The translations under genes and the position numbers were made by a program. Positions 13,921 through 53,627 of a stretch of DNA of 64,000 bases are shown in pieces (positions within the stretch are counted from its first letter, which is position 1; each line of letters starts with the position of its first letter). This DNA is from Platanthera guangdongensis. Lineage: Eukaryota; Streptophyta; Magnoliopsida; Asparagales; Orchidaceae. Below the pieces are notes generated by a model. It had not been told where the DNA came from, made no database searches, and saw only the letters and a program-made list of their open reading frames with translations. The stretch lies in assembly GCA_039583875.1 (NCBI GenBank), contig CM077150.1, positions 54,005,451 to 54,069,450 on the forward strand. The letters are read 5' to 3'.

Positions 13921-13940
13921 TGAAAGAATTAGTGCCTAAC

Positions 13941-15545: not shown

Positions 15546-15685
15546 ACTTAGAAATTTTTCTGCATTCCTGTATTTACTTAACCTGCACATATAAACTCAA
15601 AATACATCAAATACACCTTAATGCATTTCATTGAGTAGGGTGAGGCTTCTTCAAATCTGGTACACATTTTCCAATGTACCCAACA

Positions 15686-15950
15686 ATCTCCCCCTATTTG
15701 GAGGAGTTATAACCCTTAGTCAATGATATACACCATTCATAACAAAAACACATTATGATGTATAACAACATTAAATGACAGAGTAAATACTTAAAACAAA
15801 ACATAAAAGATATTTCATCACAGAATAAGTATGCTAACACAACGAGCATTCATTATAATTTTGTTTCAACTTCCAATACTTTCTTTAACAAAAGTTTACA
15901 TAGATTTTAACACAAAAGTTTACAATGTTATAAAATCTAGTAAAACTAAT
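15686..15950 (-). promoter_or_regulatory. SV-2 polypurine tract and 3' untranslated region
   Basis: TAGGGGGAGAT (15686-15696, element strand) directly precedes the 3' LTR. The remaining 250 bp up to the ORF2 stop is AT-rich and shows nothing else; it aligns by eye with the matching region of SV-3. Confidence 0.8.
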
Positions 15951-24598: not shown

Positions 24599-24612
24599 AC
24601 TTTGATACCACT
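24599..24612 (-). promoter_or_regulatory. SV-2 primer binding site
   Basis: After the LTR end CTTTCA the element strand reads AG then TGGTATCAAAGT, a close match to the initiator tRNA-Met primer site. Confidence 0.85.
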
Positions 24613-26368: not shown

Positions 26369-26373
26369 GTCTT
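26369..26373. repeat. Target site duplication of SV-2, right
   Basis: GTCTT matches 13916-13920. Confidence 0.95.
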
Positions 26374-32101: not shown

Positions 32102-33143
32102 AATCATTACCGAGGAGTGGGAGGGAAAATAACGGCGCAAGAGATCCGCATCCAGAAGATTCACCTGTGCAGTAGAGAGCCAAGACTCGTCCGAAGCAGG
32201 ACGACCACACCACCAGATCAAAAACCTGTGAATGTCACCATCGGGAGTGGGAAACACCGCGTCCTGTAAAATCCTATCAGGAAAGAAATCGGTCCGCTGG
32301 AACCTTGGAAATGCGTTAGGCGAAGAAGAAAAACAAGTTGCATCATCAGTAGGCAACATACCTCCCGGAGAATCAGAAGGAGAGAGCGATCCAGAAACAA
32401 GCTCACCCCCACCCCATTAGACGATATAGTGGAAATATTAAACAGAGAGACAGAAAGTTCAGGTGTTGGAGCGACATAAAGCGTTAAATCCGAAATGTTA
32501 AAAATAGGAGAGATTCCCCAATCAGCGGGTAACTTTAATAAATATGCATTTTCGCCTAGCTTCTTCAAAACCCGAAAAGGACCGGCTCTCTTATTCACTA
32601 ATTTCTTTATGGTGCCCGAAGGCAGCCGTTCAGGGATAAGTCGAACCATTACCAAAACACCAATATTCAAGGAGATTGCTCGCCTATGTATGTTAGCATT
32701 CGATTGATAAATATCATATTAGTGAGCTAACGTCTTGCCAATGTGCTCATGGAGAGCATGAACGTGCGAGGCGAAGTCCTGTGCAAATTTACTGGATTTA
32801 AAAGATGGAGGTAACGGAACCAAGTCAAGAGGCACGGGAGCCTTATATCCATGCACTATCTCATTCGGAGATAAACCGGTGGACCTAATCTTAGAATTAT
32901 TGTACGCTAATTGAGCATGCGGAAGAATATGGTCCCACGTACCCTTATGATCACCCACTAAACAATGAAGCAAACCTCCCAAGCTACGGTTAACTACTTC
33001 CGTTTGCCCATCCCTTTGGGGATGATAGGCCGACGAGAACATAAGTTTAGTACCCAAGAGCTTCCAAAGGGTTTTCCAGAAATAACTAGTAAATTTAACG
33101 TCCATATCACTCACTATCGTTTTGGGGATGCCCCGATGTGCCA

Positions 33144-33148
33144 CGACC
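33144..33148. repeat. Target site duplication of SV-3, left
   Basis: CGACC is repeated exactly at 55672-55676. Confidence 0.95.
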
Positions 33149-33168
33149 TGAAAGATATTGTACCTAAT

Positions 33169-33198
33169 CACCTAGAGGGGGGGGGGGGTGAATAGGTG
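33169..33198 (-). other. U5 hairpin with C-rich loop (SV-3)
   Basis: Stem CACCTA/TAGGTG encloses a run of about 13 C in element sense; the 5' LTR copy is at 53648-53679. Confidence 0.6.
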
Positions 33199-34011
33199 TC
33201 TAAATCTTTTAAACTTTTTAGGCAGATTGCCGATTATTTCACAGAGTTATAACTACTTTTTCACAGCAATCAATCAGCAATCACAGAATAACACATGCAC
33301 ACAGTGAACACACAGATTTATAGTGGTTCCCCAAGGTTTGGGTACATCCACTTTCCCCCTTCGCCTATCTAGTAGTGTACTAGATTCGGCCAAACTCCTC
33401 CACTATCTCAGATCTTACACTCAGAACCCCAAACAGGTTCCTACAGCTCAGGCCCAAGGCCCTACAACTCAGTCTTCTCCAAAGACCTACACTCAGCTTT
33501 TTCACAAAGCCTACACTCAGCCACAACAGGCCTACACTCAGCCACAACAGGCCTACACTCAGAGAATTAGATCTCCTACACTCAGGCACACAGGCCCTAC
33601 CACTCAGCCTTTATAATTACAAGCTTACAACTCAGATCCCTAAGGATCCTACAAGAAAATAAGAATACAAAGAATATACCTACAACTCAGAGACAAGAGA
33701 GATGAGTTGATAGGTTCTTGATGAGTTCTTGGAAGAACTCTGCTGAGAACAATCTCACTTGGCTTTTCTTCAAAGCTTCTTGAATGTAGACACAATAGGA
33801 TTGATTCTCTGCAGCTGATCTTCAATCACTGCAACTTAAGATTCAGAACTAGGTCTGAACCCTTCTTCACAGCCTGGTTCCAACGGCTGTCATCTTGGAA
33901 GGAGCTCTCTCTCTCCAACTTCTTAGATCTTCACTTGATTCTTCAATGAATAGCTAGATATTGTGTGAATCACTTTGATGTGTTGATCATCTCTTTCTGT
34001 TGACAGTATAA

Positions 34012-34024
34012 GCCTTTATATAGG
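34012..34024 (-). promoter_or_regulatory. SV-3 LTR TATA box
   Basis: CCTATATAAAGGC on the element strand is 130 bp downstream of the palindrome array; the 5' LTR copy is at 54505-54517. Confidence 0.7.
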
Positions 34025-34155
34025 CCTTCTTCAAGGTGACCGGCTGATCCGGTTCCTAACAGCTTTTTGACATCTCTAACAGGTGTAGCAGACAGGCTGG
34101 AATGGCAGCTGTCATGTCATCCAGTCAGTTCTTGAAATAACTGTAACTGTCTGAA

Positions 34156-35037
34156 AGTGTCGAGACAATCTGTCTTTAAGTGTCGACACTTATAGACTAA
34201 GTGTCGACACAAGTTGACTAAGTGTCGACACTAGCCTTCAAGGTGTCGACACAACTCCTTGTGTTGTAGAATTCACTTCTCGACACAGCTTCTTCATCAT
34301 GTGTCGACACTGATATTGAGTGTCGACACAACTCCTTGTACTTCAGTACTTAGTTGTATTCTTGTAAGTGTCGACACAACTCATTTGTGTCGACATATCT
34401 TCATGTGTTGAACTTGTTCAGTGTCGACACATCTTCTTGGTGTCGACATATGCCTTCTGTGTTGATACTTGCTGAGTGTCGACACAGCTCCTTGTGTCGA
34501 CACATTCTTCTTCTGTTGAGACTTTGGCTGAGTGTCGACACATCTCCTTTGTGTCGACACTTGTACTTGGAATTTTTTGTTGAACTTTGCTGAGTGTCGA
34601 CACAACATCCTAGTGTCGACACTTTCTTCATGTATTGAGTCTTCTGCTGAGTGTCGACACATTCTTTCTTGTGTCGACACTTTCTTCAAGTGTTGAGTCT
34701 TCTGCTGAGTGTCGACACATTCTTTATTATGTCGACACTTATACTTAGACTCTGCTGAAATTTGCTGAGTGTCGACACAGCCTCCAAGTGTCGACACTTT
34801 CTGATGTAGACATAGTTCTTCTAGGTGTCGACACTGCTTCTAAGTGTCGACACTTCTTCACTGGACATTTCTTCATTGAGTGTCGACACAGCCTTCATGT
34901 GTCGACACTTTCTGTCTAGTGTCGACTCTGCATCCCTGGTGTCGACACAATTACTCCAAGTGTCGACACTGCTTGCCTGGGTGTCGACACAAGTCTTCTT
35001 AAGTGTCGACACTTTCCTTCTGGGTGTCGACACATGG
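34156..35037. repeat. SV-3 LTR palindrome array (TGTGTCGACACA)
   Basis: By hand count about 30 exact GTCGACA cores lie in 880 bp, arranged in pairs (GAGTGTCGACACA...CTCC, then TGTGTCGACACTT) with a higher-order unit of about 65 bp in 34580-34790. Partner array: 54648-55530. Half-sites and decayed copies (TGTTGACA) are mixed in. Confidence 0.88.
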
Positions 35038-35178
35038 ACTTAGAAAACTTTCAGCCTTCCCTGCAAATACTTAACCTGCACAAGGCAACTCAAAATACAT
35101 CAAATACATTTTGATGTATATCATTGAGTAGGGTGAGGCTTCTTCAAATCAGGTACATTTAAACCAATATACCCAACA

Positions 35179-35453: not shown

Positions 35454-38273
35454 CTATTTTTGCTCAGCCTCCTTGATCACTATGCCCTTCCCAGACTGTA
35501 TCGTTGCTTGCACAGGGGCTTCAGCATCTTCAGTATCAGCAGGCTTCTTCCCTTTCAGATCCTTCTTCTTTAACTCTTCAGCTTTAATCTTCTGCCTCTC
35601 AAAGTAATAATAAGGCTTGGGAAAGTACTTGCTAGGCTCCTGGGCAGTAGGAGGTAGCTTTCCCATCTTTGCCTTTCTTCTATATTGCACTATGGCTTCT
35701 TGCCTGTTTTCATGCTGTCTCCATTCTAGTTCAGAATACCACTTGTTTCTGTCTTGAATATTATCTTTGGCAGCCTTCCAAGAAGTCAAAATAATATTTC
35801 TTGAAGTGGGGCTCCACTGTTCAAAATCAGGCCTTTGTTCAGCTTGCTCTTTGAACCTCTTCTTAGACAGTCTGACTTCTTGTTCTTTCAGTATAGCTTC
35901 TTGTACAGCTTCAGATACTGGCTGAACCACCTTTTCTATGATGACATTTTGCTGTCCCTCAGGTGGGCTATACATTGACTGTATATCAGCTTGTACCATA
36001 TCAAAGTCTGGTGGAGGATAGATCACCTGAGCTACTTCAGCTTGCTCACCTCCAAGATAGGCAGGATTAATCCCAGACTCAGCAACATTATCATCATCAC
36101 ATAAAGGAGGATAACCAAGAGTTGCTCTGATAGAATTAGAAATCCACATTGCATGATCAGAGCCTGCTTTGACTAAAACCCTCTCCCCCTTTATGACTTC
36201 TCTTTCTATGTGATCTCTTAAATCATCTTTCTGAAATCTGATTTGGGAATTTAGATAATTGACTCCATCCTTGTAGAAATGTTTTAACCTTTGGAGTTTT
36301 TCAGTGAAGAGCTTCTGGGAATCTTGAATGGCAGAAGTTACAGCAGTGAGGCTCTCTTGCAATTCTTTATCAAATTCCTCTTTGGCAGTAGTCAGGGCTG
36401 CATTCTGTGCAGTGGCTATACTCTTAAGTTCAGTGACAATAGCATTGTGAGAAGCTGTCAAGTTATCATTCATTCTGATTTGATTCTCCAGTACATATCC
36501 TTGCTTTACTTCAAGTTCATCCACTTGAGATTTAATTTTCTCTTGATGAGTAGCTAGATAGACTACTGCACTCCCTCCCTTGTGGAAGCAGTCAGTCATC
36601 TCCTTCTTATTTAGATTCATCTCAAATCTAATAGACTTAATATCTTGGGCCAGGTCAAATTGTAGAGACTTATGACCCTCATCCATATATGTTTCTATAG
36701 CTTTCCTGTGCTCATCAAGCTTTATTTGCATTGCAACCATCAGAGAACTGTAATCTACAGATGGTACTGGCTGTAGTGCAGGCTGTGGTGCGATGGTTTG
36801 CAGAGCTTTCTTATAAGTCTGGCTCCTCCTCTTGAAGACTTGAAATTTCCTTTTCTTTGCTCTTGTAGCCTCCTCATCTTCAGAAGCTGAGGTGCTTGCT
36901 ATTTCTACCCTCTCCTTAGGTAGTTCCTCAACATTCTTTGGCTTCTCAGGCTCTTTCCTTGCAGTTTCTTCTAGAATCTCAACTTGCTCCCCCTCAACTT
37001 GAGCATTCTCCCCCTCAGCAGCAACACTTGCTTTCTCAAAGTCTGTTTGATCCATATTAAGGAAGAGATCTTCCATTGTAAACTCTTGTTGAGGTTGTGA
37101 TGGAGAATCCCTTGTCTCATCAACAACTTGATCAGATACAACTTGAGCTGCAACAGATGTGTCCTCCATGACAACATCTGGGGGTTGACTATCAATCTGA
37201 GGTTGTTGATTAACATGATTTAATGAATCAGACAAAACATTATCCTCTATAGGGAAAACTGAGTTATTGATTTCAGTGAGTACCTCAAGTATGGTGTTTG
37301 TAGCTTGTTCACTTTCTAGTGGAGTTGGCTCTTCCACTACTAGAGGCTCCCCCTGGATAGAATCCTGGTGAAGAGGGCTAGCCTGTGGTAGCTCCCCCTG
37401 TCTCACAGCATCATCTTGTATTGCTGGAGACTTTCCAGCAATTCTAGTGTCTTCTTCATCAGGAGTGAAGACAACTTGCTCCTCAGAGCTTCTAGAGGAA
37501 TCTTGAGCCACTGGGGCTGTCTTCTTCTTCTTCTTAAGTGGGGTTTCCTTCTCAGGTGTTGGCATCTCCTTAGACAAGACCCTATCCCATCTTGAGAAGA
37601 GTCTCATGTCCATCTTCCTCATGTGGTTGATCTTTGATCCAGCAGCTTGACTCATTACTTCTGGTATACTACCAACCAAGTAAAGACTTAGTATCCTACC
37701 CAAATTGGGCTTCTTCATGCTCTCTTTAATCTTATCAAAGACTACTACAGACCAATTAGTTTTCAATGTGAAGATAATCCTTGTCATGAGACTGAACATA
37801 TGGGCTGATACCCTATCATGCCCTCCAGGCTTACTCAAGATCACCTTTCCAACAATTTCAGAGAGGAATTTTCCTTTGCTGTTCATCCCCTTCCTATTGA
37901 ACACTGATCCAATTTTCATATTGGAATCCAGACCACACCAAGTTAATGCTTCCCTAGTTTTAGAAGCAGAAACATTCTCTTCTTCCTTAGTCCTTGGTAA
38001 CTGAAGTACTTTTCTCAAACTCTTAGATGTGACCTTCACCTTTTCTCCATGAACCCTTGACTTTATCTTGAGTCCAGAGTCGTCTAGGGTTGCTCCATTC
38101 AGAAATTCTAATACTTCTTTCTTCCATATTTTGGTTGGCTCTGAAACAAGAAAATCTAATCCTGAGTCTGCAACTAGGGTTACCACATCCTTGATCTCCG
38201 ATTCTGCATCATCAAATGCATGCCGCACCAGTTCATAGCCTTCATTTACGTTCTCCTCGAGCTTAGGCGCCAT
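35454..38273 (-). CDS. SV-3 ORF2, intact, envelope-like position
   Basis: The first ATG giving homology with SV-2 is 38273 (MAPKLEENVNEGYELV), for 939 aa; an upstream in-frame TTG at 38360 is not used here as a start. Residues 1-250 form a conserved core (VKVTSKSLRKVLQLP, FLSEIVGKVILSKPGGHDR, KPNLGRILSLYLVGS, LFSRWDRVLSKEM). Residues about 255-480 are acidic and Gln/Ser/Pro-rich. A basic cluster TRAKKRKFQVFKRR (about 485) may be a nuclear signal. A long helical, coiled-coil-like region follows (about 515-720, QFDLAQDIKSIRFEMN, ending RATLGYPPL), then a charged C-terminus (EQWSPTSRNIILTSWK, RRKAKMGKLPPT). No signal peptide, membrane segment or enzyme motif is visible. Function is unknown. Confidence 0.88.
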   Translation of the reverse strand: MAPKLEENVNEGYELVRHAFDDAESEIKDVVTLVADSGLDFLVSEPTKIWKKEVLEFLNGATLDDSGLKIKSRVHGEKVKVTSKSLRKVLQLPRTKEEENVSASKTREALTWCGLDSNMKIGSVFNRKGMNSKGKFLSEIVGKVILSKPGGHDRVSAHMFSLMTRIIFTLKTNWSVVVFDKIKESMKKPNLGRILSLYLVGSIPEVMSQAAGSKINHMRKMDMRLFSRWDRVLSKEMPTPEKETPLKKKKKTAPVAQDSSRSSEEQVVFTPDEEDTRIAGKSPAIQDDAVRQGELPQASPLHQDSIQGEPLVVEEPTPLESEQATNTILEVLTEINNSVFPIEDNVLSDSLNHVNQQPQIDSQPPDVVMEDTSVAAQVVSDQVVDETRDSPSQPQQEFTMEDLFLNMDQTDFEKASVAAEGENAQVEGEQVEILEETARKEPEKPKNVEELPKERVEIASTSASEDEEATRAKKRKFQVFKRRSQTYKKALQTIAPQPALQPVPSVDYSSLMVAMQIKLDEHRKAIETYMDEGHKSLQFDLAQDIKSIRFEMNLNKKEMTDCFHKGGSAVVYLATHQEKIKSQVDELEVKQGYVLENQIRMNDNLTASHNAIVTELKSIATAQNAALTTAKEEFDKELQESLTAVTSAIQDSQKLFTEKLQRLKHFYKDGVNYLNSQIRFQKDDLRDHIEREVIKGERVLVKAGSDHAMWISNSIRATLGYPPLCDDDNVAESGINPAYLGGEQAEVAQVIYPPPDFDMVQADIQSMYSPPEGQQNVIIEKVVQPVSEAVQEAILKEQEVRLSKKRFKEQAEQRPDFEQWSPTSRNIILTSWKAAKDNIQDRNKWYSELEWRQHENRQEAIVQYRRKAKMGKLPPTAQEPSKYFPKPYYYFERQKIKAEELKKKDLKGKKPADTEDAEAPVQATIQSGKGIVIKEAEQK

Positions 38274-38760
38274 TAGGGTTTGAAGAATTTGAATTGAGAG
38301 AAGAGAGGTGTCGATACACAAGTTTGGTCTCGAAACTTTAGTGAGCGTGTCGATAGACAATGGCGAAATCCTATTTATACCTTTCTAGGATTGAAGATGA
38401 AAGGGCGCGTCAACAAACTTAAATTGTGTCGACACTGTTGAAAAGTGTCGACACAGACTTATAATGTCTTGACACCTATGTGTCGACACAAGTATAGTCA
38501 ACAGAATATATGTGTCGACACTTGTTTATGTGTCGACACCACTCAGCTCGACACATAGTCGAGACTTTACTTCACTAATTCTGCATAAAGTCTAAGTGTC
38601 GACACCACCTTGGATGTGTCGACACCTTCTCTATATGTGTCGACACTAATTCCCTGAAGTGTCGACACCAACTTCCTAGATGTGTCGACACCACTTCCCT
38701 GAAGTGTCGACACCAATTCTCTGTCTCGACACAGACAACTCTGTGTGTCAACACTATTTT
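38274..38760 (-). promoter_or_regulatory. Candidate internal promoter of SV-3 ORF2
   Basis: Between the pol stop (38781) and ORF2 lie about a dozen TGTCGACAC words (38425-38750) followed on the element strand by GTATAAATAG (38371-38380), 97 bp before the ATG. The same word makes up the LTR array, which also precedes a TATA box. The TATA segment is conserved with SV-2. Confidence 0.65.
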
Positions 38761-38780
38761 ACTTAGTCATTTCTGTAAAC

Positions 38781-39432
38781 TTATTCTAAGTTTATCATAC
38801 CTAATTCAATTTTAAACCTATTGAACTTGGTTTCTTCTAAAGGCTTAGTATACATATCAGCTAGTTGATTATCTGTCTTAACATACTCTAATGAAATATC
38901 TTCTTTTTCTACATGTTCCCTTAGAAAATGATATTTTATTTCAATATGTTTAGTTCTACTATGGGAAACAGGATTGTTTGCAATAGATATAGCACTAGTA
39001 GAATCACAAAACAGTGGTGTTCTACTTACCTGAATACCATAATCCTCAAGCTGATGTTGTATCCATAGAAGTTGAGCACAACAACATCCTGCAGCCACAT
39101 ACTCTGATTCTGCTGTGGAGATAGCCACACTTGTTTGCTTCTTGCTACTCCATGAAATCAGTCTTCCACCTAGGAATTGACAGGTACCAGTTGTACTTTT
39201 CTTATCTTCCTTGCAGCCTGCAAAATCTGCATCTGAATAACCTGTCAGTTCAAAATCCCCATTCCTAGGGTACCAAAGGCCTAAATAAGGAGTGCCCTTT
39301 AGATATCTCAGTATCCTTTTGACTGCTGTCAAATGAGACTCTTTAGGGCATGCTTGGTACCTAGCACAGACACATGTAGCATACATGATATCTGGTCTAC
39401 TTGCAGTCAAATAGAGTAGAGAGCCAACTATC
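38781..39432 (-). pseudogene. SV-3 pol: RNase H part left of SV-4
   Basis: From GSLLYLTASRPDIMYATCVC the frame runs through LTGYSDADFAGC, STAESEYVAAGCCC, LFCDSTSAISIANNP, RTKHIEIKYHFLRE and DMYTKPLEE to the stop at 38781. This part is fully open. It continues the frame ending YRGIV at 48966, so SV-4 cut pol in the YRGIVGSLLYL segment. A separate start codon within this piece has no meaning. Confidence 0.93.
39428..39432. repeat. Target site duplication of SV-4, left
   Basis: CTATC is repeated exactly at 48961-48965. Confidence 0.95.
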
Positions 39433-39459
39433 TGAAAGTCCACCTAGTGTCAACTATGT

Positions 39460-39489
39460 TCACCTATGGGGGGGGGGGGGAATAGGTGA
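39460..39489 (-). other. U5 hairpin with C-rich loop (SV-4)
   Basis: Stem TCACCTAT/ATAGGTGA surrounds a run of about 13 C in element sense; the copy in the 5' LTR is near 47291-47319. Confidence 0.6.
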
Positions 39490-40290
39490 CGTGCAGCGCT
39501 TTTGCGGAATTTAAATTGTACCTGCACACAAAAATAAAACAACACAGCACAACAGAGTACACAAGGTATTTATAGTGGTTCCCTGACTTGGGTACATCCA
39601 CTTTCCCCCTTCGACCTATCTCCCAACAAGGGATGACTCGGTCACTTCTCCAACGGGATTGAAATCCAATCCCTGCACTATCAGAAGGAACCCTTCCACA
39701 CGTTGGAATCAACACTCCCACAAACCGGGTTGCACCCAACCCTTACAACACGGAACAAACGTTCCTTTACAACAAAATTAAAATAGAATGTACACAAGAT
39801 ACAAACTTCGTTTGGAGACTAAGGTGTCCCTCTTTGTTGACGACGTGTTCTTGAAGTCCACAAAGAGTCCACAACCTTTGATCTCTCTTGGAGAGGATCT
39901 CCCCGTAACCGGCGGCGGCAAGATGAGCGGCGGCTTGGTACGGGATCGTCGGCAACGACGGCGCGCGACTGCTGTACTTTGAGATCCAAACTTCGTAGCG
40001 AAGCAAACTAGGTCTACCAACGGTCACTCTAGGATCGGTCGTCTCGATCGATTCGGATGGGGGAGTTTTTCCCGGTCAACAAATCGAGAGACAAGGGATC
40101 TCTGGATAGACGCGTGAGACTCAAGCCTTGCTAAGCTTCTGTCGCCGGAGATCGGGAAGAAACGCGATCAACAGCGGCGACCGACTAGCGCGAGAGGCGA
40201 CGACGGTGGCGACGGAGAGGAACTCGCGATTTTAGGGTTAGATCGTCCTCGGCTTCTTTTCTCTGTGTGTGTATTCCGTTCAAAATACCC

Positions 40291-40302
40291 GTATATATAT
40301 AC
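40291..40302 (-). promoter_or_regulatory. SV-4 LTR TATA-like element
   Basis: GTATATATATAC is identical in the 5' LTR (48121-48132) and lies 120 bp downstream of the palindrome array in element sense. Confidence 0.5.
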
Positions 40303-40422
40303 TGTAGACAACTTGAATAAGACCATTGTGGGACCCACAAGAAGAATCCCTAAATCCCGGTCCAGGACATTGACAGCGGCAGAATCCGGTTCAGGAAGTT
40401 CCAGAAAATCGCCCAAGTCAAA

Positions 40423-40796
40423 ATCGGTGAGAATCAAAAGTGAATCTCGCCGAATCGTCGAGAATCAAAGGTGATTCTCGAAGATTCGGCGAGAATCAAA
40501 GATGATTCTCGTCGAATTTTCCTTGGTTGCACGCACTGCTTTAGGCCAGGTCGAAACAGCGAGAATCAACCAGTGATTCTCGACGATTCGACGAGAATCA
40601 CTAGTGATTCTCGCCGAATCGGCGAGAATCACTTGGTGATTCTCGTCGATTCTTACTTAGAAGCAGAGGTGCTCTCTAAGAAGTAGCTGGATCGAGTTCG
40701 GCGAGAATCAGCCACTGATTCTCGACGAATCGGCGAGAATCACTAGTGATTCTCGCCGAATCGGCGAGAATCACTTGGTGATTCTCGTCGATTTAC
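40423..40796. repeat. SV-4 LTR palindrome array (GAGAATCAC/GTGATTCTC)
   Basis: Units GCGAGAATCAC and GTGATTCTCGC alternate with GCCGAATCGGC spacers, so that most units form perfect palindromes of 20-28 bp, for example the one centred on CACTAGTG at 40600 and at 40743. Partner array: 48253-48626. Confidence 0.88.
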
Positions 40797-40999
40797 ACTT
40801 AGACGAATTTTCGTCTTTCCACCCATGAGGTGCTCCTTGACCCATCCTTGCTCCTTGTATGATCCTGCATAGTTACAGCCCTGTGCTTGAAAGTAAGTGC
40901 ACTCCAATAGAGAGAGTACACGTAGGCCAACACACTGATCTGCTCAACGAGGGATTACGTCGTGCAGACCCGTGTATATTGACCTGCTGCACCCTGACA

Positions 41000-41421
41000 T
41001 TGGTGTGCACTTAGCGTGGAAGAACTGCAAGCACAATCTTGAAAGAGTTTATCAAATACATTGTCTATTGACCTTAGCTTGTCCAGGAGCTTCTTCAAAT
41101 CAGGTACATTGTGGATACAATACCCAACAATCTCCCCCTATTTGAAGAAGCCTAAACCCTACAAGCTAAGGTGAATAGAGCATATGGGAATGAAAACCAT
41201 AAACTTGAAATTGGTGTGCACTTAGCGTGGAAGAACTGCAAGCACAATCTTGAAAGAGTTTATCAAATACATTGTCTATTGACCTTAGCTTGTCCAGGAG
41301 CTTCTTCAAATCAGGTACATTGTGGATACAATACCCAACAATCTCCCCCTATTTGAAGAAGCCTAAACCCTACAAGCTAAGGTGAATAGAGCATATGGGA
41401 ATGAAAACCATAAACTTGAAA
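41000..41421. repeat. 211-bp tandem duplication across the SV-4 LTR end and polypurine tract
   Basis: 41000-41210 and 41211-41421 read identically. Each copy has 130 bp of LTR end, the polypurine tract (41130-41140 and 41341-41351) and 70 bp of internal sequence. The right LTR has no such duplication. Confidence 0.93.
41130..41140 (-). promoter_or_regulatory. SV-4 polypurine tract (with duplicate at 41341-41351)
   Basis: TAGGGGGAGAT on the element strand directly precedes the 3' LTR. Confidence 0.85.
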
Positions 41422-41716
41422 TTGAGTTGAGTGAGTTATCCATTACCAATACCAATTTCTTGGGAGCAAGCTTGGAAGCTTGAAGCTTGGAAGCTTTGAA
41501 GAAGCCTAAACCCAATACCAATTTCTTGGGAGCAAGCTTGGAAGCTTGGAGCCACCTTAGACTTAGCCGCGAGGGTAATCTCCCCCTTTTCGGCTTCTGC
41601 AAATCGGGGTCGGTAGCATTTGACCCCTTGCTCCCCCTCAGTTCTTGCGTTTGTGCTCACACTTGAGTGCCTTGCTCCCCCTCAGATCGTGTACGAGCCT
41701 GGAGCTTCTGTAGTCT
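41422..41716 (-). other. SV-4 3' untranslated region with a 66-bp repeat
   Basis: The sequence CCAATACCAATTTCTTGGGA with the following AAGCTTGGAAGCTTG occurs at about 41446 and again 66 bp later at 41512. Otherwise it is noncoding sequence with CTCCCCCT motifs up to the pol stop. Confidence 0.6.
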
Positions 41717-42790
41717 TCATTCCTCATAATTGAGCATCCCAAATTCAGTCTTGAAAATATTGAACTTGGCCTCGTCTAAGGGCTTTGTGAATATATCAGC
41801 AATCTGCTTGTCCGTGGGGACATAGCAGAGAGAGATGTCCTTGTTCTCCACGTGCTCCCGAATGAAGTGGTAGCGCACTTCAATATGCTTTATTCTGCTG
41901 TGCGATACCAGATTGTTGGCAATGGAAATTGCACTGGAGGAGTCGCAGTACATTGGAATTTCCTTGAACTGAAGGTCGTAGTCGGCTAACTGGTTTCTGA
42001 TCCATAGGAGTTGTGCGCAACAGCTGCCTGCCGAGATGTACTCAGACTCTGCTGTGGAGGTAGCTACACAATTCTGCATCTTGCTGTTCCATGAGATAAG
42101 CCTTCTTCCGAGGAATTGACACGTCCCGGAAGTGCTTTTTCTGTCATCCCTACTCCCTGCAAAATCAGCATCTGAAAAGCCTATTAGCTCGACATCATTG
42201 TTTCTCGGGTACCACAAGCCAAGATTAGGAGTACCTTTAAGGTATCTTAGAATTCGCTTTGCAGCGACATAGTGAGATTCCTTAGTGTTCACCTGATATC
42301 GGGCACAGACACATGTGGAGAACATAATATCCGGTCTACTGGCAGTAAGGTAGAGCAGGGATCCAATGATGCTTCTGTATTTGGTTTCATCGAAAGGTTT
42401 ACCTTTCTCATCCTGATCCAGAGACATAGTGGATCACATTGGAGTCCTCATAGAGGTTGCACTCTCCATACCGAATTTCTTAAGGAGTTCATTTGTGAAC
42501 TTCGTCTGAGAGATGAAGATTCCATCCTCAGACTGTTTCACTTGAAGTCCTAAGAAATACTTGAGCTCTCCCATACTGCTCATTTCAAACTTTCCTTGCA
42601 TAAGTTTAGAAAACTTTTTGCAAAGATTGTTGTCCGTTGAGCCGAATATTATGTCATCGACATAGATTTGCACCAGCAAAATCTTGCCTTTGACTTCCCT
42701 GAGAAACAATGTTTTATCTATTTTACCTCTAGAGAACTTGTTCTCAAGAAGAAAACTAGATAAAGTCTCATACCAAGCTCGTGGAGCTTA
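41717..42790 (-). pseudogene. SV-4 pol: RT C-terminal part and RNase H
   Basis: The frame continues from the stop at 42788 (YGLK then TAA, before APRAWYETL). It contains the RT centre QIYVDDIIFGS (about 42655), GELKYFLGLQVKQSEDG, a second stop at 42434, and RNase H (41717-42427): RSIIGSLLYLTASRPDIMF, LIGFSDADFAGSRDDRKST, STAESEYISAGSCC, MYCDSSSAISIANN, HIEVRYHFIREHVE, DIFTKPLDE. Apart from the stops the frame is unbroken with 42788-44884. Confidence 0.92.
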
Positions 42791-44892
42791 TTTCAACCCA
42801 TATAAGGCTTTATTAAGAAAATAAACATGATTGGGATAAGTAGGATCGACAAAACCTGGGGGTTGAGCAACGTATACTTCCTCTTTCAGGTCTCCGTTCA
42901 AGAATGCTGATTTCACATCCATTTGATAGACTGTGAATCCTTTGTGTGAAGCATACACCAGGAACAATCTGATTGCCTCGAGCCTTGCTACTGGTGCGAA
43001 GGTCTGGTCGAAGTCAATCCCCTCCTCCTGTCTGTAACCTTGAGCCACCAGCCTGACCTTGTTCTTTACGATGACACCATGTTCATCCAGTTTGTTTCTG
43101 AAGATCCACTTGGTGCCAATCACATTCTGCTTGTGTGGTCTGGGAACCAGCGTCCAGACGTTGCATCGTTTGAATTGATGTAGTTCATCTTGCATGGCCA
43201 AAATCCATGCCGCATCTTTGTTCGCCTCGTCGAACTTCTTTGGCTCAACCTGTGACAGGAAGCTAAGATGCAATACTTCATTAATAGTACCTCTTCGAGT
43301 TCTGACACCGACACGAGGATCTCCGATGATCTGATCTCTAGGATGATCCCTCACGTGCCGGAGTTCTAGAAGTCTGGCGTCTGGAGCTTCGACTACTTCT
43401 TGGGCTTCTCCTTCTTCTAAGAGATTTGTTCCATTTTGATCTTCAACATTTTCAGATGACGTGGAGGTGGAAACTTTGACGTACTTAGGAGTGTCATCTT
43501 TAGCGGTCTCATCCAGACTCAGCTGTTCCAGTCGTGCACCTGCATCTTCAAGAATACCACTGGAAGAATTGCTGTTAAGCAAACTTCCTTCATCAAATAC
43601 AACATTTATTGATTCTTCTACCACTAGGGTTTTCTTATTGAAGACCCTATATGCCCGACTGTGGGAACTATAGCCCATGAATATGCCTTCGAAGCATTTT
43701 TCACCAAATTTAGTACGCGGGTACTTCCCATTATTCAGTACATAGCATCTGCAACCAAAGATCCTCAAGTAGGACATGGTTGGTTTCCTGCCTTTCAGTA
43801 GCTCGTAAGGCATCTTACGATGATGCTTGTTGATCAATGCTCGGTTTTGTACATGACAAGCTGTATTGACAGCCTCTGCCCAGAAGTATTCTGGGAGAGA
43901 AGCGTCTTTCAACATTGTCGTGCAGGCTTCAATGAGAGTTCTATTTCTCCTCTCCGCAACTCCGTTTTGCTGAGGAGTGCGCGGGGAGGAAAACTCATGA
44001 AAGATACCTTGTTCTTCACAAAACTCTGTCATAGCACCAGATTCGAATTCTGTTCCATGGTCACTTCTGATTTTGACCACTGAGCAGTTAAATTCATTCT
44101 GGACCTGCTTGACAAAACTAGTGAAGATGTCAAACGTATCAGACTTTCGTTTCAAAAAGAACACCCATGTAAACCATGAGTGATCATCAACTATCACTAG
44201 CGTATAGGACTTGCCTCCCAAGCTATGAACTTGCACTGGACCAAACAAGTCCATATGTAAAAGGTAAAGACATCGGGAAGAGTCTTTGTCTGCAATGCTC
44301 TTAAAGGTAGCCCGAGTCTGTTTGCCCATCTGGCATGCAGGACAGGGGCTATCTTTGATGCACTTGATACTGGGAGCATCCCTTACTAAATTCTTAGAAA
44401 ACAGCATACTAATTGTCTTGAAATTAATATGTGCCAATCTCTTGTGCCATTGTTCACAAAGAGATGCACTGCCTGTTGCCACAAGACATACGAGGGTAGA
44501 TGAATCTAAACTGAGAAAATCTAAGCAGAAGATATTTCTGCTCCTAATGCCTGATAATACCGTCTCAGAAGAGGTACGTGAAATTATCAGACATTTATCC
44601 TTGCAGAACTTAACGTCATAACCTTTATCACATAACTGACTTACACTGATCAGGTTATGGTTTAACCCTTCAACATAAGCCACGTCGGTGATAGAGATTA
44701 TACCGTTGGAAATCATACCATAACCTCTGGTGACTCCCCGATCTGACCCTCCAAAGATGACTTTGGGTCCATTCTCGACTGGAGTGTAATCACGCAGCAG
44801 GCTTCTTGTCCCAGTCATATGCCGGGAGCATCCACTGTCCAAATACCAGATCGGCGTTTTGGTGGCCTTTGGACATTCCTGCAAAACAAAAT
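42788..44892 (-). pseudogene. SV-4 pol: protease, integrase and RT N-terminal part
   Basis: A 698-codon open stretch runs from the protease [14 protein letters not shown] through the pre-integrase segment ([15 protein letters not shown] ... [14 protein letters not shown]), the integrase core with catalytic Asp in MDLFGPV, Asp in RSDHGTEFE and Glu in QNGVAERRN, the linker ending [14 protein letters not shown] (no stop here, unlike SV-2 and SV-3), and the RT palm ([42 protein letters not shown]) to YGLK. Upstream of the protease is the TAA at 44892-44894. Confidence 0.93.
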
Positions 44893-47173
44893 TAACTCGC
44901 CTTAGGAACCCAATCGAACTTGGGTCCTAGATTCCTGGTTAGCACACTCCCCTCGGTTGGTTAACCCTACGAGTGGTCGGCCTCGCAGTGCTAACATAAG
45001 GAGTCTCGTAATACCTTGGATTAAACCAACAATCCACGGCAAAGTGACCAACTTTGCCACAGCACCAACAGTCGAATCTGTTGTACCTCTTCCTAGGCTC
45101 CTGCCTTACCCTGTGAACGGTGGGTACAGCTGGGGCCTTGGATCTGGAGGTAGAGGCCTCATGGTGACAACAGTCACATGACTTCGTCACCTTCTGTATA
45201 ACAGGCTTGGCTTTTGGTGCCTGCTTTCCATTATGGCCGCTAGAGAACGAACCATAATTTCCCATGTGGATTTCCTCATAAGGTGCCTTGAAGGCACTCT
45301 CACCGAAGTTCCGGGGAAAGGTCCAACCGTCATATCGGCTCTTTGGCTTTGCAACCGAGGGCCGGAAATGATGGCCAAATGTTGACTCAAAGTCATGTTG
45401 GTTGCAAGGAAAGCCAGGCTTTCTGAACGCAACAGGACTAAGCAGAGCCTTTCCCTTTTTATCAGCAGAGGCCTTCTTGGCGGCCTTATTCTTCCTCTGG
45501 TTCCTGTTTCTCCTGGATGAGGAACCAGATACCCCTACATGCCCCAGGCCAGCTCCTTTGGCCTGAGCAGAGAAGGTATCAATGACTGGAAGAACAGTTT
45601 TTGGCATAGAGAAGCTCTTGACGATCTTCCTTTCTGCCGCAAGTAGTTCTTCCAACTTGTCGACTTCCTCCTGCTTAAGATCAAGGAGCTTCAAAGACTC
45701 TGAATGCTTTGAAGTCAGGTCAAGGTGCTCCTATCGGAGAGAAATCAAGCTAGTGACCTCTTCCCTTAGGGATACACACTCACCCTTAAGGAATTTCACT
45801 TCCTTCTTCTCAGCCTTCAGTCTCTTACGGCACTCCTCGAAAGTGTTGAGCAGAAGCTCATATTTCTCGAGGAGCTCCGCTTCACGGGCCGAAGGGCTAT
45901 CCTCAGGTTCATCATCCTGAGACTCAAGGTCAAAGTCGGAGTCGGAGAGAGGGGTGTGAGCTTTTACCTTCCCAGTAAATGGGGGGCATTCTCCTTCTGA
46001 GTCCGAGCGACCCACCAGCCCGAAGTAGGCTTCCTCATCATCACTGGAGTCTGAGGAATCAGACTCACTCAGTGTCTTTGGCCTTTTGGCGATGTAGCTC
46101 CGCTCCTTCTTCTTATCTCTAGAGGATTTGTGCTCCTCTTCTTTCCCTTTTTCTCTCTTGCCTTGATAGCAGTCGGCCACGACGTGTCCTGGCTTATTGC
46201 ATCCAAAGCAAATAATGTCAGAGGAGCGATGTTTGTTCGGTCTAGATGCATACCTGTCAGAAGAATAATTTTTCGTCTGATGCCTGGAGGAGGAGCCGTC
46301 TCTCTTTCTTTGATTCCTCATCTTGAGGAACTTCTTGAACTCTCGAGTGATGAGGGAGAAATCCTCCTCCGACAGCTCTGAGCTGGAGGAGCATGGCTCG
46401 GAGTCCTCCTCCTCATCCTTTTTCCTGGCACGGTACGAAACCGCACCCTTGCCTTTTCTGGAGTGACTGGCTTTTAGAGCCACAGTCTTTTCTTTGGCTG
46501 CCGCCTTCTCTGCTTCTTCTTCTGCTTTTCTGGTGTTCAGCTGAAGCTCATAGGACATCAGCTTTCCAAACAGAATTTGTGGATCAGTTTCAGCTAGTCT
46601 GCCAAACTCTCTGATGGAGCAGATCTTTGTGTCCCATTCCTTAGTAAGGGACCTAAGGAATTTATCATTGAGTTCACCATTAGTGAACACTCTTCCGTAG
46701 CCTTTGAGGGCGTTGACAATCTTGAGGAAGTTCTCGTATGTGACTCCGATCTCTTCCTTAGGCCCTTGTCTGAAGGCCTCATATTTCTGGTTCAGGAGGG
46801 ATCTCCGATCATCCCTCACTTCATCCGTGCCCTCCATTAGGATGATCAGGCACTGCCAGATCTCCTGTGCTGTCCTGCAGTTGCTGAAGTTTTGCATCAT
46901 AGAGTCATCAACTGCGCTGACCAGAATGTTCCGTGCCTTCATGTCAAGTCCCACTAGCACCATCTCGTCCTTGTCCATTTCAGAAAGTGTCTTCGGCACT
47001 TTCTTGGTGGGATCAATGGTGGAGGCCTTAGTGGGGACATAAGGTCCCTCCTGCATGATCATGAAAAGTCGAGGATCCACTGCTTCCATGTAGAACCTGA
47101 TCCTTTCCTTCCAGATAGGAAAGTTGAGCCTGGTGCACACTGGGATCTTGCCGGAGAACTTGAGCCCGTCCAT
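44893..47173 (-). pseudogene. SV-4 Gag, two-knuckle type
   Basis: The ATG at 47173 (MDGLKFSGKIPVC) begins Gag; an upstream in-frame GTG at 47200 is not preferred. The capsid part contains FPIWKERIRFYMEAVDPRLF and LNDKFLRSLTKEWDTKICS. The first knuckle is CFGCNKPGHVVADC (about 46190), followed by a Lys/Glu-rich and Ser/Asp-rich region and a coiled-coil stretch. A TAG at 45731 interrupts it. The second part (44939-45694) is basic and ends with the knuckle CWCCGKVGHFAVDC. Near its end the frame meets a TAA at 44939, and a one-base shift is needed to read GPKFDWVPK. Confidence 0.9.
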
Positions 47174-47249
47174 AGTAGATGTTTGCCTCCTTGTTGACAC
47201 TAGTGGCAGGATTCAACTCAAGGTGTTAACCTTTTTGATGAGGAACCTG

Positions 47250-47261
47250 GCTCTGATACCA
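47250..47261 (-). promoter_or_regulatory. SV-4 primer binding site
   Basis: The element strand reads TGGTATCAGAGC, an exact initiator tRNA-Met primer site, two bases after the LTR. Confidence 0.93.
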
Positions 47262-47263
47262 CT

Positions 47264-48960
47264 TGAAAGTCCACCTAGTGTCAACTATGTTCACCTATGG
47301 GGGGGGGGGGAATAGGTGACGTGCAGCGCTTTTGCGGAATTTAAATTGTACCTGCACACAAAAATAAAACAACACAGCACAACAGAGTACACAAGGTATT
47401 TATAGTGGTTCCCCGACTTGGGTACATCCACTTTCCCCCTTCGACCTATCTCCCAATAAGGGACGACTCGGTCACTTCTCCAACGGGATTGAAATCCAAT
47501 CCCTGCACTATCGGAAGGAACCCATCCACACATGGGAATCAACACTCCCACAAACCGGGTTGCACCCAACCCTTACAACACGGAACAAACGTTCCTTTAC
47601 AACAAAATTAAAATAGAATGTACACAAGATACAAACTTCGTTTGGAGACTAAGGTGTCCCTCTTTGTTGACGACGTGTTCTTGAAGTCCACAAAGAGTCC
47701 ACAACCTTTGATCTCTCTTGGAGAGGATCTCCCCGTAACCGGCGGCGGCAAGATGAGCGGCGGCTTGGTACGGGATCAGCGGCAACGATGGCGTGCGGCT
47801 GCTGTACTTTGAGATCCAAACTTCATAGCGAAGCAAACTAGGTCTACCAACGATCACTCTAGTATCGGTCGTCTCGATCGATTCGGACGGGGGAGTTTTT
47901 CCCGGTCAACAAATCGAGAGATAAGGGATCTCTGGATAGACGCGTGAGACTCAAGTCTTGCTAAGCTTCTGTCGCCGGAGATCGGGAAGAAACGCGATCA
48001 ACAGCGGCGACCGACTAGCGCGAGAGGCGACGATGGCGGCGGTGGAGCGGAACTCGCGATTTTAGGGTTAGATCGTCCTCGGCTTCTTTTCTCTGTGTGT
48101 GTATTCCGTTCAAAATACCCGTATATATATACTGTAGACAACTTGAATAAGACCGTTGTGGGACCCACAAGAAGAATCCCTAAATCCCGGTCCAGGACAT
48201 TGACAGCGGCAGAATCCGGTTCAGGAAGTTCCAGAAAATCGCCCAAGTCAGAATCGGTGAGAATCAAAAGTGAATCTCGCCGAATCGTCGAGAATCAAAG
48301 GTGATTCTCGACGATTCTGCTAGAATCAAAGATGATTCTCGTCGAATTTGCCTTGGTTGCACGCACTGCTTTAGGCCAGGTCGAAACGGCGAGAATCAAC
48401 CAGTGATTCTCGACGATTCGATGAGAATCACTAGTGATTCTCGCCGAATCGGCGAGAATCACTTGGTGATTCTCGCCGATTCTTACTTAGAAGCAGAGGT
48501 GCTCGCTAAGAAGTAGCTGGATCGAGTTCGGCGAGAATCAGCCACTGATTCTCGACGAATCGGCAAGAATCACTTGGTGATTCTCGCCGAATCGGCGAGA
48601 ATCACTTGGTGATTCTCGTCGATTTACACTTAGACGAATTTTCGTCTTTCCACCCATGAGGTGCTCCTTGACCCATCCTTGCTCCTTGTCTGCTCCTGCA
48701 TAGTTACAGCCCTGTGCTTGAAAGTAAGTGCACTCCAATAGAGAGAGTACACATAGGCCAACACACTGATCTGCTCAACGAGGGATTACGTCGTGCAGAC
48801 CCGTGTATATTGACCTGCTGCACCCTGACATTGGTGTGCACTTAGCGTGGAAGAACTGCAAGCACAATCTTGAAAGAGTTTATCAAATACATTGTCTATT
48901 GACCTTAGCTTGTCCAGGAGCTTCTTCAAATCAGGTACATTGTGGATACAATACCCAACA
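47264..48960 (-). repeat. SV-4 5' LTR (right copy)
   Basis: This 1697-bp partner of 39433-41129 differs by scattered substitutions. TATA-like element at 48121-48132; array at 48253-48626. Confidence 0.95.
48253..48626. repeat. SV-4 palindrome array, 5' LTR copy
   Basis: Same GAGAATCAC/GTGATTCTC units as 40423-40796, with a few unit-level differences. Confidence 0.88.
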
Positions 48961-48965
48961 CTATC
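48961..48965. repeat. Target site duplication of SV-4, right
   Basis: CTATC matches 39428-39432. Confidence 0.95.
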
Positions 48966-49903
48966 CCTCTATACAAAGTCTCATCTATAGGTTTCCCTGC
49001 ATCATCTTTGCTAAGAGACATACTTGACCCCATAGGAGTCTTCATGGTACTGGATGATTCCATACCATACTTCCTTATCAGTTCTAGGGTGAACTTAGAC
49101 TGGCATATGGATAAACCATTCTCAGTCTGTCTAACTTGGAGACCCAAGAAGAACTTAAGTTCCCCCATACTGCTCATCTCAAATTGTCCTTGCATTAGTT
49201 TTGCAAACTTTTTGCAAAGACTACTTTCAGTAGACCCAAATATGATGTCATCTACATATATTTGGACTAGTATTATCTTGCCTCTGGATTCCCTAAGGAA
49301 TAGGGTCTTGTCTATTTTCCCCCTTGTGAATTTATTCTCAATGAGGAAACTAGACAGGGTTTCATACCAAGCCCTAGGGGCTTATTTTAACCCATACAAA
49401 GCCTTCCTAAGTCTATAGACATAATTAGGTTGAGTTGAATCAACAAAACCTGATTGCTGTTCCACATTGCCTTCTTCCTTTAGATTACCATTCAGAAAGG
49501 CTGACTTTACATCCATTTGGTATACTTTAAATCCTGGATAGGTTGCATAGGCCAGGAACATCCTTATGCCTTCCAGTCTGGCTACTGGAGCAAAGGTTTG
49601 ATCAAAGTCAATACCTTCTTCCTGCCTATATCCCTTAGCAACCAGTCTTGCTTTGTTCTTGATAATCACTCCATGTTCATCCATTTTGTTCCTAAAGATC
49701 CACTTGGTTCCAATTATGTTGTGGTCTTTTGGTTTAGAAACAAGCTCCCAGACTTTGCACCTCTTGAACTGATTCAGCTCCTCTTGCATTGCCTCAATCC
49801 AATGAGGGTCTAGGATGGCTTCTTCAAACTTCTTTGGCTCAACTTGGGAAAGAAAACAGGAGTAGAGTGCTGCACTCAGATTTCTGCTCCTTGTTTGTAC
49901 CCC
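48966..49903 (-). pseudogene. SV-3 pol: reverse transcriptase right of SV-4
   Basis: The minus strand encodes [44 protein letters not shown] (49382-49789), a TAA at 49382 after YGLK, the catalytic YVDD near 49250, and [17 protein letters not shown] to LYRGIV at the SV-4 insertion. The CAA codon of LKQAPRAWY is changed to TAA here and, at the same codon, in SV-4; SV-2 keeps CAA. Confidence 0.92.
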
Positions 49904-51487
49904 TTATCTTATATCACCAATGATTTGATCTGCTGGATGATCTCTTAGATGCCTATTAGCTGGAGGCATCTTGGCTTCAGGTTGAACTTCTTCAATTTCT
50001 TCAACTTGCTGCACTCCTTGGACTTCTTCTTCATTAGGTACATGTAGTACTCCCCCTGGACAACAGCCACTATCATCCACTTGCTGACTTGCAGTAGATT
50101 CATCTTCAATAGTGAGCTTGTCCATCTTCTTAGTTATACCTGTGGTGCTGCAAATACTACTAGACAACTCATGGTTAATAAGTCTAGCTTCATCAAATAC
50201 TACATGTACAGACTCCTCTACAACTTGAGTACTCAAGTTATAGACTCTATAAGCCTTACTATTGTTTCTGTACCCAACAAATATCCCCTCTTGGGATTTG
50301 GCAGCAAACTTAGTCAAGTAAGATTTTCCATTGTTAAGTATAAAGCACTTACAACCAAAGATCCTGAAAAAGGATAGGTTTGGTTTTATGTCTTTCACAA
50401 TCTCATAGGGGGTCTTATTGTGGCTTTTAGTAATGGTAGCCCTATTAATTACATGGCATGCAGTATTAACTGCCTCAGCCCAGAAATATTCTGGGAGAGA
50501 TGTGTCACTTAATAGCATTCTACCAGCCTCAATCAAGGTTCTATTTTTCCTCTCAGCAATGCCATTTTGCTGAGGTGTTCTTGGTGAAGAAAATTCCTGA
50601 AATATCCCAAATTCTTCACATAGTTTTGTCATACTATCAGACTGGAATCCAGTACCATGGTCACTTCTTATCTTGACTACTGTACTGTCTAGTTCATTCT
50701 GAATTTGTTTGACAAAGCTATAGAAGATACTAGGTGTTTCAGATTTCTGTCTAATGAAGAACACCCAGGAAAACCTTGAGTAGTCATCTACAACCACAAA
50801 GGTATAGACCTTCCTACCTAGGCTGTAAACTGGCATATGACCAAAGAGATCCATATGCAAAAGGTATAAGCACCTCACAGCATCTTTGTTTTCAATGCAA
50901 CTAAAGGTGGATCTAGTCTGCTTGCCCTTTTAACAAGCTGAGCATATTCCATCTTTAATACACTTAACTTGAGGACCATTCCTCACTAACTCTTTGCTAT
51001 AGAGTTGGCCAATTGTCTTGTAGTTGAGATGGGCTAGCCTCTTGTGCCATTTGACACAATGAGAGACTTTCTCATCAGCTACAAGACACACTGGAGAACC
51101 ATTGTTCTCACACATAATGTCTAGACAATAGACATTTCTTTTTCTGTAACCTGTCAAAATGATCTCTTGATCATTTGACCTCCTGATATGACAACCATCT
51201 TTGACAAAAGAGATGTCATATCCTAAATCACTCAGTTGACTTATACTAATGAGGTTATTTTTCAAACCTTTAACATAAGCCACTTGAGTAATAGTTATAT
51301 GGGTGCTAGAAATGTTACCAAAACCTTTGATGATTCCTTTTTCAGAACCACCAAAGGTGACTTTAGGACCATCCTTGATAGGTGTGTAGTCTTTTAGCAA
51401 TCCCTTAGTTCCAGTCATGTGTCTGGAACATCCACTGTCCAAGTACCATATTGGGGCATGGCCACTTGGACTCACCTGCAAAACAGA
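49904..51487 (-). pseudogene. SV-3 pol: protease, GAG-pre-integrase and integrase
   Basis: In the frame of the upstream Gag, after TAA at 51488, come [24 protein letters not shown] (protease), VKWHKRLAHLNYKTIGQ and CSAC then TAA at 50930 (CAA of CSACQKGK), and the integrase core (49904-50878) with Asp in MDLFGHM, Asp in RSDHGTGF and Glu in QNGIAERKN. The linker ends IIGDIR then TAA at 49904, at the same codon as the SV-2 stop at 20908. Confidence 0.92.
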
Positions 51488-53523: not shown

Positions 53524-53612
53524 GGTTCTTGATTTTCTTGATTCTGCAATTTACTTAGACTGAATCTGCCAACAGGATCTACTCAGACAGTTAAGTCCTT
53601 TTTGAGGAACCT

Positions 53613-53627
53613 CGCTTTGATACCACT
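53613..53627 (-). promoter_or_regulatory. SV-3 primer binding site
   Basis: The element strand reads AG then TGGTATCAAAGCG after the LTR, matching the initiator tRNA-Met primer site with one change. Confidence 0.88.

Follow-up and report, generated by a model that had tools for sequence, protein, structure and literature searches.

A conserved promoter-like module between pol and ORF2 of Sirevirus-like retrotransposons in Platanthera guangdongensis

The closest described counterpart of the module reported here is the RM box of Sireviruses (PMC2829016), a palindrome that occurs in high copy number in the LTR before the TATA box and is repeated before ENV in those elements that have an ENV gene. 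CpG islands were described at both the LTR and the ENV sites, and an internal promoter was suggested, though in that account it was not conclusively identified. In SIRE1 of soybean, which shares a lineage with the elements studied here, ENV is expressed by stop-codon suppression, with one stop codon between pol and ENV (PMC2829016). The sequence-only reading from which this work started set an internal promoter apart from published work of this kind. That contrast was wrong in part, since an internal promoter had already been proposed by Peterson-Burch and Voytas in 2002 (as cited in PMC2829016) and boxes common to the LTR and the ENV upstream region had already been found by Bousios in 2010 (PMC2829016). 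The expression and function of the Sirevirus third gene are described as unproven (PMC2829016, PMC3414828), and the open-access literature searched yielded no subsequent account in which an internal promoter of a Sirevirus is identified. Outside Sireviruses, the Ty1-copia-type element Ty1 of yeast also has an internal promoter, which sits ∼800 bp downstream of the main one and yields a truncated Gag; an array shared with the LTR is not mentioned in the available part of that account (PMC8585004). In foamy virus, one element-encoded activator, Tas, serves both an internal promoter and the LTR (PMC8670036). VANC21 of Arabidopsis VANDAL21 (PMC5735166, PMC10398659, PDB 9lnj) is likewise element-encoded; noncoding DNA of the element itself carries arrays of its short words, both the word and the protein are family-specific, and CG methylation is lost locally at the binding sites (PMC5735166, PMC10398659).

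The elements described here resemble those with RM boxes in having a high-copy LTR palindrome that recurs before the third gene where that gene is present, but they differ in several respects. The CGG-CCG core present in 12 of 13 published cases, to which Tnd-1 is the published exception (PMC2829016), is absent from both TGTCGACA and ATCGTCGA/TCGACGAT; a TATA box, a leader and a telo box can be identified; and CpG retention extends past the ATG. Unlike the single stop codon of SIRE1, ∼500 bp with many stops separate pol from ORF2. Foamy virus is unrelated, and an activator of the kind found there is hypothetical here. VANC21 belongs to a DNA transposon and recognizes YAGTATTAY in one orientation (PMC5735166, PMC10398659), whereas the words here are CpG-bearing palindromes of a retrotransposon; the searches made found no sequence-level VANC match for ORF2, and both word binding and demethylation by ORF2 are putative.

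The elements and the module before ORF2

The window, by which we mean the whole 64,000-nt stretch analysed, contains four Sirevirus-like Ty1-copia elements (SV-1 to SV-4), all on the minus strand (Table 1). The copia order of pol, with integrase before reverse transcriptase, was found in SV-4 (gag_pre-integrs, rve, RVT_2), and SV-1 to SV-3 were placed with it by RNase H homology to SV-4 only. As in Sireviruses, a palindromic array lies in the LTR and before ORF2 in SV-1, SV-2 and SV-3, and in the LTR only in SV-4, which has no ORF2; in all four elements a C run close to the end of the LTR, read by eye, matches the polyC-rich integrase signal at the 3′ end of Sirevirus LTRs. As candidates for the multiple polypurine tracts that Sireviruses have before the 3′ LTR, counted in SV-4 alone, AGGGGGAG occurs three times in the SV-4 linker. 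ORF2 is open after pol in SV-1 and SV-3 and broken in SV-2. SV-1 is a deletion derivative bearing ORF2: it retains both LTRs, and its interior (3408-7705) holds the RNase H end, the promoter module and the open ORF2, with no space for gag through reverse transcriptase. SV-4 (39433-49200) carries an LTR word, CGAGAATC, unlike those of the other elements, a telo-like box in its LTR leader, and milder CpG loss (observed/expected 0.51). Near the start of its 3′ LTR is an exact 211-bp tandem duplication (40995-41416), single in the 5′ LTR (48826-49036), and tandem repeats with units of roughly 85 bp occupy 62389-63184.

Table 1. Coordinates of elements, arrays and promoter-like features in the window.
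Feature	Position	Strand	Remarks
SV-1 LTRs	1902-3407 and 7706-9210	-	96.8% alike; ∼4.3 kb interior
SV-1 ORF2	4138-6642	-	834 codons, open
SV-1 splice-acceptor-like TTTTTGCAG	6649-6657	-	directly before ATG; rival signal
SV-1 TATAAAA	6757-6763	-	ATG 6642
SV-1 telo box	6764-6772	-	abuts TATA
SV-1 internal array	6780-7070 (approximate)	.	word ATCGTCGA/TCGACGAT
SV-2 LTRs	13920-15689 and 24612-26372	-	94.7% alike
SV-2 telo box	18806-18814	-	overlaps ATG of broken ORF2
SV-2 internal TATA box	18907-18915	-	ATG 18806
SV-2 internal array	18845-19292	.	12 exact TGTCGACA; two downstream of TATA
SV-3 LTRs	33120-35178 and 53600-55671	-	97.0% alike
SV-3 3′ LTR TATA CCTATATAAAG	34014-34024	-	∼160 bp after array
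SV-3 3′ LTR array, TGTCGACA	34180-35034	.	
SV-3 5′ LTR array, TGTCGACA	54673-55527	.	
SV-3 ORF2	35454-38273	-	939 codons, open; weak PF20167 match
SV-3 ORF2 residues 1-216	37626-38273	-	predicted fold resembles DNA-bound part of VANC21
SV-3 telo box AAACCCTAA	38273-38281	-	overlaps ORF2 start codon
SV-3 leader, TATA to ATG	38274-38370	-	no ATG; 62% pyrimidine; CpG retained
SV-3 internal TATA box TATAAATAG	38371-38379	-	GTATAAATAG at 38380-38371; 97 bp to ATG 38273
SV-3 CpG-retaining stretch	38199-38780	.	spacer, leader and first 75 bp of ORF2
SV-3 internal array	38426-38713	.	11 exact TGTCGACA palindromes, decayed copies around
SV-3 pol end (RNase H)	38781-39443	-	SV-4 interrupts pol further upstream
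SV-4 LTRs	39433-41141 and 47264-48972	-	97.5% alike; nested in SV-3 pol

The sequence-only reading had described, between pol and ORF2 of SV-3, about a dozen palindromic words followed by a TATA box shortly before the ATG, and the same layout in SV-2; both were found as described. The distance from TATA to ATG is 97-100 bp for TATAAATAG in SV-3 and SV-2 and 114 bp for TATAAAA in SV-1. On both strands of the window, TATAAATAG occurs four times, two of which are these internal TATA sites; AAACCCTAA occurs three times, every one at an ORF2 leader; and AACCCTAA occurs five times, all at ORF2 leaders or SV-4 LTR leaders. The telo box was first spotted in SV-3, and its occurrence in SV-1 is an independent repeat. 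In translation-related plant genes, telo boxes lie mostly between −50 and +50 of the start site (PMC3022908). The three leaders are free of ATG, which is present in the spacers upstream of TATA. We considered and rejected the leader as coding sequence: differences between SV-2 and SV-3 are spread over the codon positions (11, 4 and 7), gaps of 1 and 2 bases are present, and SV-2 has an in-frame stop. We therefore treated the leader as noncoding.

The module was also expected to be kept in most family members, and this was borne out in the sample examined. The host genome (4.25 Gb, 274 contigs) contains 14,723 SV-2/3-type and 14,669 SV-1-type ORF2-start places (reversed controls, 0), from which we took the first 30 of each type by position on one contig and dropped none. 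In the SV-2/3 type, all 30 copies had TATAWAW at 104-108 bp and at least 7 words within 700 bp upstream, 28 had AACCCTA at the ATG, and 27 were free of ATG between TATA and the start, the nearest upstream ATG lying within the leader in the other 3. The TATA octamer was TATAAATA in 29 copies and TATAAATT in 1. Mean pairwise identity was 99.2% for this octamer and 98.2% for the telo box with the ATG, compared with 82.2% for the leader, 75.2% for the 50 bp upstream of TATA, 83.6% for the array, and 78.0 and 74.4% for ORF2. The simplest explanation for a TATA box so much better kept than its neighbours is selection, although further short blocks near TATA are also almost invariant. In the SV-1 type, TATAWAW was found within 200 bp in 27 of 30 copies (26 at 118-122 bp) and AACCCTA in 24, with pairwise identities of 89.5% for TATA and 77.8% for the leader; three copies had TATATTAG-like variants only, and L101 had its TATA at another distance. 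Two gene models of the orchid Platanthera zijinensis that span the spacer, for which the evidence is consistency at the codon level from proteins only, appear to encode the SV-2/3-type TATA and leader (P0004) and the SV-1-type array, telo box and TATA (P0012); the leader and TATA scores of P0004/P0012 were 70 and 91, against shuffle maxima of 40 and 38, and 144, against a shuffle maximum of 60. A search for further P0004-like gene models gave P0004 alone, and no encoded relatives outside the host genome were found in the viral contigs or genome contigs searched.

The palindromic word in LTRs and spacers

Of the 118 exact copies of TGTCGACA in the window, 35 are in the SV-2 LTRs (17 and 18), 60 in the SV-3 LTRs (31 and 29), 12 in the SV-2 spacer and 11 in the SV-3 spacer. 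SV-1 was said to have the same layout with a different palindrome. Its array, TATAAAA and ATG were found, but the part common to LTRs (7 and 9 copies) and spacer (7 copies) is the half-word ATCGTCGA/TCGACGAT and not the whole repeat; GAGCTC, abundant in the SV-1 LTRs (7 and 6), occurs once in the spacer. The half-word is absent from SV-1 ORF2, RNase H and 3′ linker and occurs 6 times in the window outside SV-1. SV-4, described as lacking both ORF2 and an internal array, indeed has no copy of its LTR word (13 in one LTR, 16 in the other) in its 375-bp linker.

The claim that the internal word always equals the LTR word proved too strong. We picked 20 of 60 fetched copies (12 SV-1-type, including all four outliers, and 8 SV-2/3-type), read 4.5 kb on the 3′ side of each, and called agreement when the same word occurred four or more times. 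The word was the same in 16 of the 20 (7 TGTCGACA, 7 ATCGTCGA, 2 TTCGTCGA) and different in L093, and L060, L101 and L102 could not be judged. A stricter measure asked what fraction of the 8-mers repeated in a spacer recur in repeated form in the 3′ flank; for a copy's own flank this fraction exceeded the mean of the other flanks in 15 of 19 scorable copies. The copy noted under L093 and L117 has a spacer with ATCGTCGA and a 3′ flank with TGTCGACA, as in a nested or recombinant element. The three copies with TTCGTCGA form a separate ORF2 lineage, with 59% N-terminal identity to the ATCGTCGA lineage, compared with 82% within the latter. In these sequences, word and ORF2 thus change together, the third word being represented by few copies.

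Outside the words, spacer and LTR have little or nothing in common. With words masked, the SV-2 spacer-LTR score was matched by 55 of 100 shuffles and the SV-3 score by 4 of 100 (with a 14-bp match), whereas none of 100 shuffles matched the score between the SV-2 and SV-3 spacers. Simple LTR duplication therefore does not explain the common word, and we rejected the idea that the spacer arose by LTR capture. SV-2 and SV-3 differ by 4-6% in word columns and by 22-23% in other spacer columns (word conservation over flanks, p 4e-4 and 5e-6), and the arrays turn over, with 8 of 15 word positions in common. Spacings between words are mainly 18-23 and ∼32-48 bp. Because 10.5-bp phasing was weak (R 0.35 for pooled SV-3, p 0.013 against a uniform null; nearly absent in SV-2 LTRs) and arrays grow by duplication, we do not claim helical phasing. 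The paired TGTCGACA pattern occurs at 1,549,178 forward and 1,568,425 reverse places in the host genome (control, 93 and 114), an exceptionally heavy load of a single palindrome, and paired TGTCGACAC was present in 45 stretches of viral contigs.

CpG retention and the route of ORF2 expression

The bodies of SV-1, SV-2 and SV-3 have a CpG observed/expected ratio of 0.01-0.03 with TG and CA in excess, and CAG and CTG are not depleted in them. These trinucleotides are likewise undepleted in SV-4, and two other stretches of the window have CpG ratios of 0.82 and 0.83. In SV-2 and SV-3 the CpG-poor bodies comprise 16400-18706, 19318-24400, 35454-38173 and 49201-53500, and arginine in the ORF2 of SV-3 and SV-1 is encoded by AGR codons and hardly ever by CGN. 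Since the LTR pairs of SV-2 and SV-3 have diverged by only 3-5%, most of the CpG loss should be older than these insertions.

CpG survives in the LTR words, the spacer, the leader and early ORF2. The first 100 bases of ORF2 contain 5 CpG in SV-3, compared with 3 in the other 2,720 (p 2.5e-6), and 7 in SV-2, compared with 1 in 2,307 (p 1.3e-9); the cluster ends 74 bp (SV-3) and 68 bp (SV-2) past the A of the ATG, and a single further CpG follows at 192 and 176. In SV-1 the leader shows a significant excess (p 5.4e-5) and the first 100 bases of ORF2 do not (p 0.11). Among the SV-2/3-type copies, all 30 have 2-6 CpG per 100 bases in the leader and 4-10 in the first 100 ORF2 bases, while the ORF2 body (∼1,397 bases) has 0-5 in 28 copies; two outliers (92 and 70 body CpG), which may carry other DNA, were kept in the count. 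The LTR TATA regions outside the words have 3 CpG in 211 and 2 in 231 bases, compared with 4 in 760 and 3 in 690, so such retention does not characterize these promoters in general. Read most simply, the surroundings of the ORF2 start escaped CG methylation in the multiplying lineages.

That ORF2 is transcribed from its own promoter, as the sequence-only reading held, is partly supported by core-promoter anatomy, conservation of the TATA box and CpG retention, and by the failure of simple stop-codon suppression: the spacers of SV-1, SV-2 and SV-3 have 5 to 12 stops per frame, which excludes read-through from pol as a simple route. We consider it probable, with good confidence, that the spacer between pol and ORF2 is an RNA polymerase II promoter for ORF2. 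The order of word array, TATA, AUG-free leader, telo box and start codon would be a promoter layout. Transcription in plant promoters starts ∼25-35 bp beyond TATA, and the same distance would apply here. Since spacer and LTR have almost nothing in common apart from the word, the word itself appears to have been kept in register, as expected if one DNA-binding protein serves two promoters. The ORF2 promoter may thus respond to the same factor as the LTR, and a word-binding protein, possibly ORF2 itself, would drive or protect both. Splice-acceptor-like signals in both types count against an internal promoter, and the account that we hold most likely, again with good confidence, is an internal promoter alone in the SV-2/3 type, perhaps with an additional spliced RNA in the SV-1 type.

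A form of this account in which both routes are used, the internal promoter making ORF2 RNA and the SV-1-type acceptor also serving LTR-started RNA, overlaps with it and is, as a separate statement, somewhat unlikely. The SV-1-type TATA and acceptor are equally conserved (0.895 over 406 of 435 pairs and 0.896 over 351 of 435, gapped pairs dropped), but a donor suited to an internal start is not evident, as the conserved GT at −101 and −98 would lie upstream of the point where transcription is expected to begin.

Splicing in place of a promoter is unlikely as a full explanation. By this route a subgenomic RNA would start in the 5′ LTR and be spliced close to where ORF2 begins, joining at TTTTGCAG or ahead of TATA; env acceptors of this kind have been predicted in BAGY2 and Athila (as cited in PMC2829016). 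A T-rich stretch and CAG directly precede the ATG in 29 of 30 SV-1-type copies (counted by eye), and this acceptor-like site is as conserved (89.6%) as TATA while the bases between it and the ATG vary (66.5% pairwise); a spliced ORF2 mRNA is therefore possible in this type. The SV-2/3 type has a pyrimidine-rich stretch and AG directly before TATA (AG in at least 29 of 30), but here the AG sits upstream of TATA and the six columns directly before it vary. Donor-like sequences are present in the RNase H of SV-3 (CAG/GTAAGT at 39032) and in SV-2 (CAA/GTAAGT, and AGGTAAG at 23955), yet a word search within the window found no donor common to the families. Platanthera gene models that fuse pol with the leader or ORF2 fit splicing as well, but their junctions vary between models, as is typical of ab initio predictions, and splicing leaves the TATA box, the telo box and the CpG footprint unexplained.

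It is quite improbable that the array serves at the RNA level or in silencing (through hairpins or dimer contacts, or as a source of siRNA) and is no part of a promoter. The spacer RNA folds strongly (−188 kcal/mol, z −8.5) and LTR palindromes of maize Sireviruses are small-RNA hotspots (PMC5311732), but good folding is expected of any palindrome array, and this reading accounts neither for the position of the array directly before TATA and ORF2 nor for its absence where ORF2 is absent, both in SV-4 and in four elements of Bousios Table 3 (PMC2829016). Finally, an array that is a neutral by-product of copying between the LTR and the element interior would fit the turnover of the arrays but is highly improbable, given words more conserved than their flanks and spacer and LTR flanks that are unrelated or nearly so.

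ORF2 and a possible VANC-type function

ORF2 is under purifying selection, because between SV-2 and SV-3 its first and second codon positions differ by 16-21% and its fourfold sites by 52-61% (36% in RNase H). The predicted fold of residues 1-215 of SV-1 ORF2 resembles VANC21, as does that of the corresponding part of SV-3 ORF2 (Table 1), with moderate fold-match scores. At the sequence level, searching PDB with P0008 and P0009 and with the profiles A3 and A5 did not list VANC (for A3, among the best 60 of 125 matches, which were dominated by the pol parts of fused gene models). DUF1985 and DUF287 were not listed for ORF2 pieces up to E 10, in a search whose HMMER filters drop weak matches, the PF20167 match is below its cut-off, and a viral fold library gave no match with E≤0.001. 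By hydropathy alone, the top 19-residue Kyte-Doolittle mean of SV-3 ORF2 is 1.12, with no transmembrane candidate, and SV-1 ORF2 has one alanine-rich stretch at 2.02.

We tentatively propose, with somewhat less than even confidence, that ORF2 is not an envelope protein but a VANC-type, sequence-specific DNA-binding anti-silencing protein, which would bind its own word in the LTR and the internal promoter and block CG methylation there in a positive feedback. We hold in the same tentative way that word and protein co-evolve, with three ORF2 lineages and three words, the third known from three copies, two of which have an LTR that matches. Survival of CpG at the arrays and the ORF2 start alone would be a fossil of local protection, and undepleted CAG and CTG would be expected if non-CG methylation were lost along the whole active element, as with VANC21. 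Counting against this proposal are SV-4, a control that lacks ORF2 and has undepleted CAG and CTG too, the moderate fold scores, and sunflower methylation data.

We conclude that the module is real and strongly conserved and is most likely an internal promoter. What is new here is the TATA box, leader and telo box, the degree to which sampled copies conserve them, and the CpG footprint past the ATG, together with the co-variation of word and ORF2 lineage and the predicted fold resemblance to VANC21. With a conserved core promoter and ∼14,700 recognizable ORF2 starts per type in one genome, available methods for mapping transcript starts can test the internal-promoter idea directly. Of greater interest is the possibility that ORF2 reads the word. 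In the open-access literature searched, sequence-specific anti-silencing encoded by the element itself has so far been described for DNA transposons only. If ORF2 is VANC-like, such a system would also be carried by a very large class of plant retrotransposons, and the 'plant envelope gene' would need reinterpretation.
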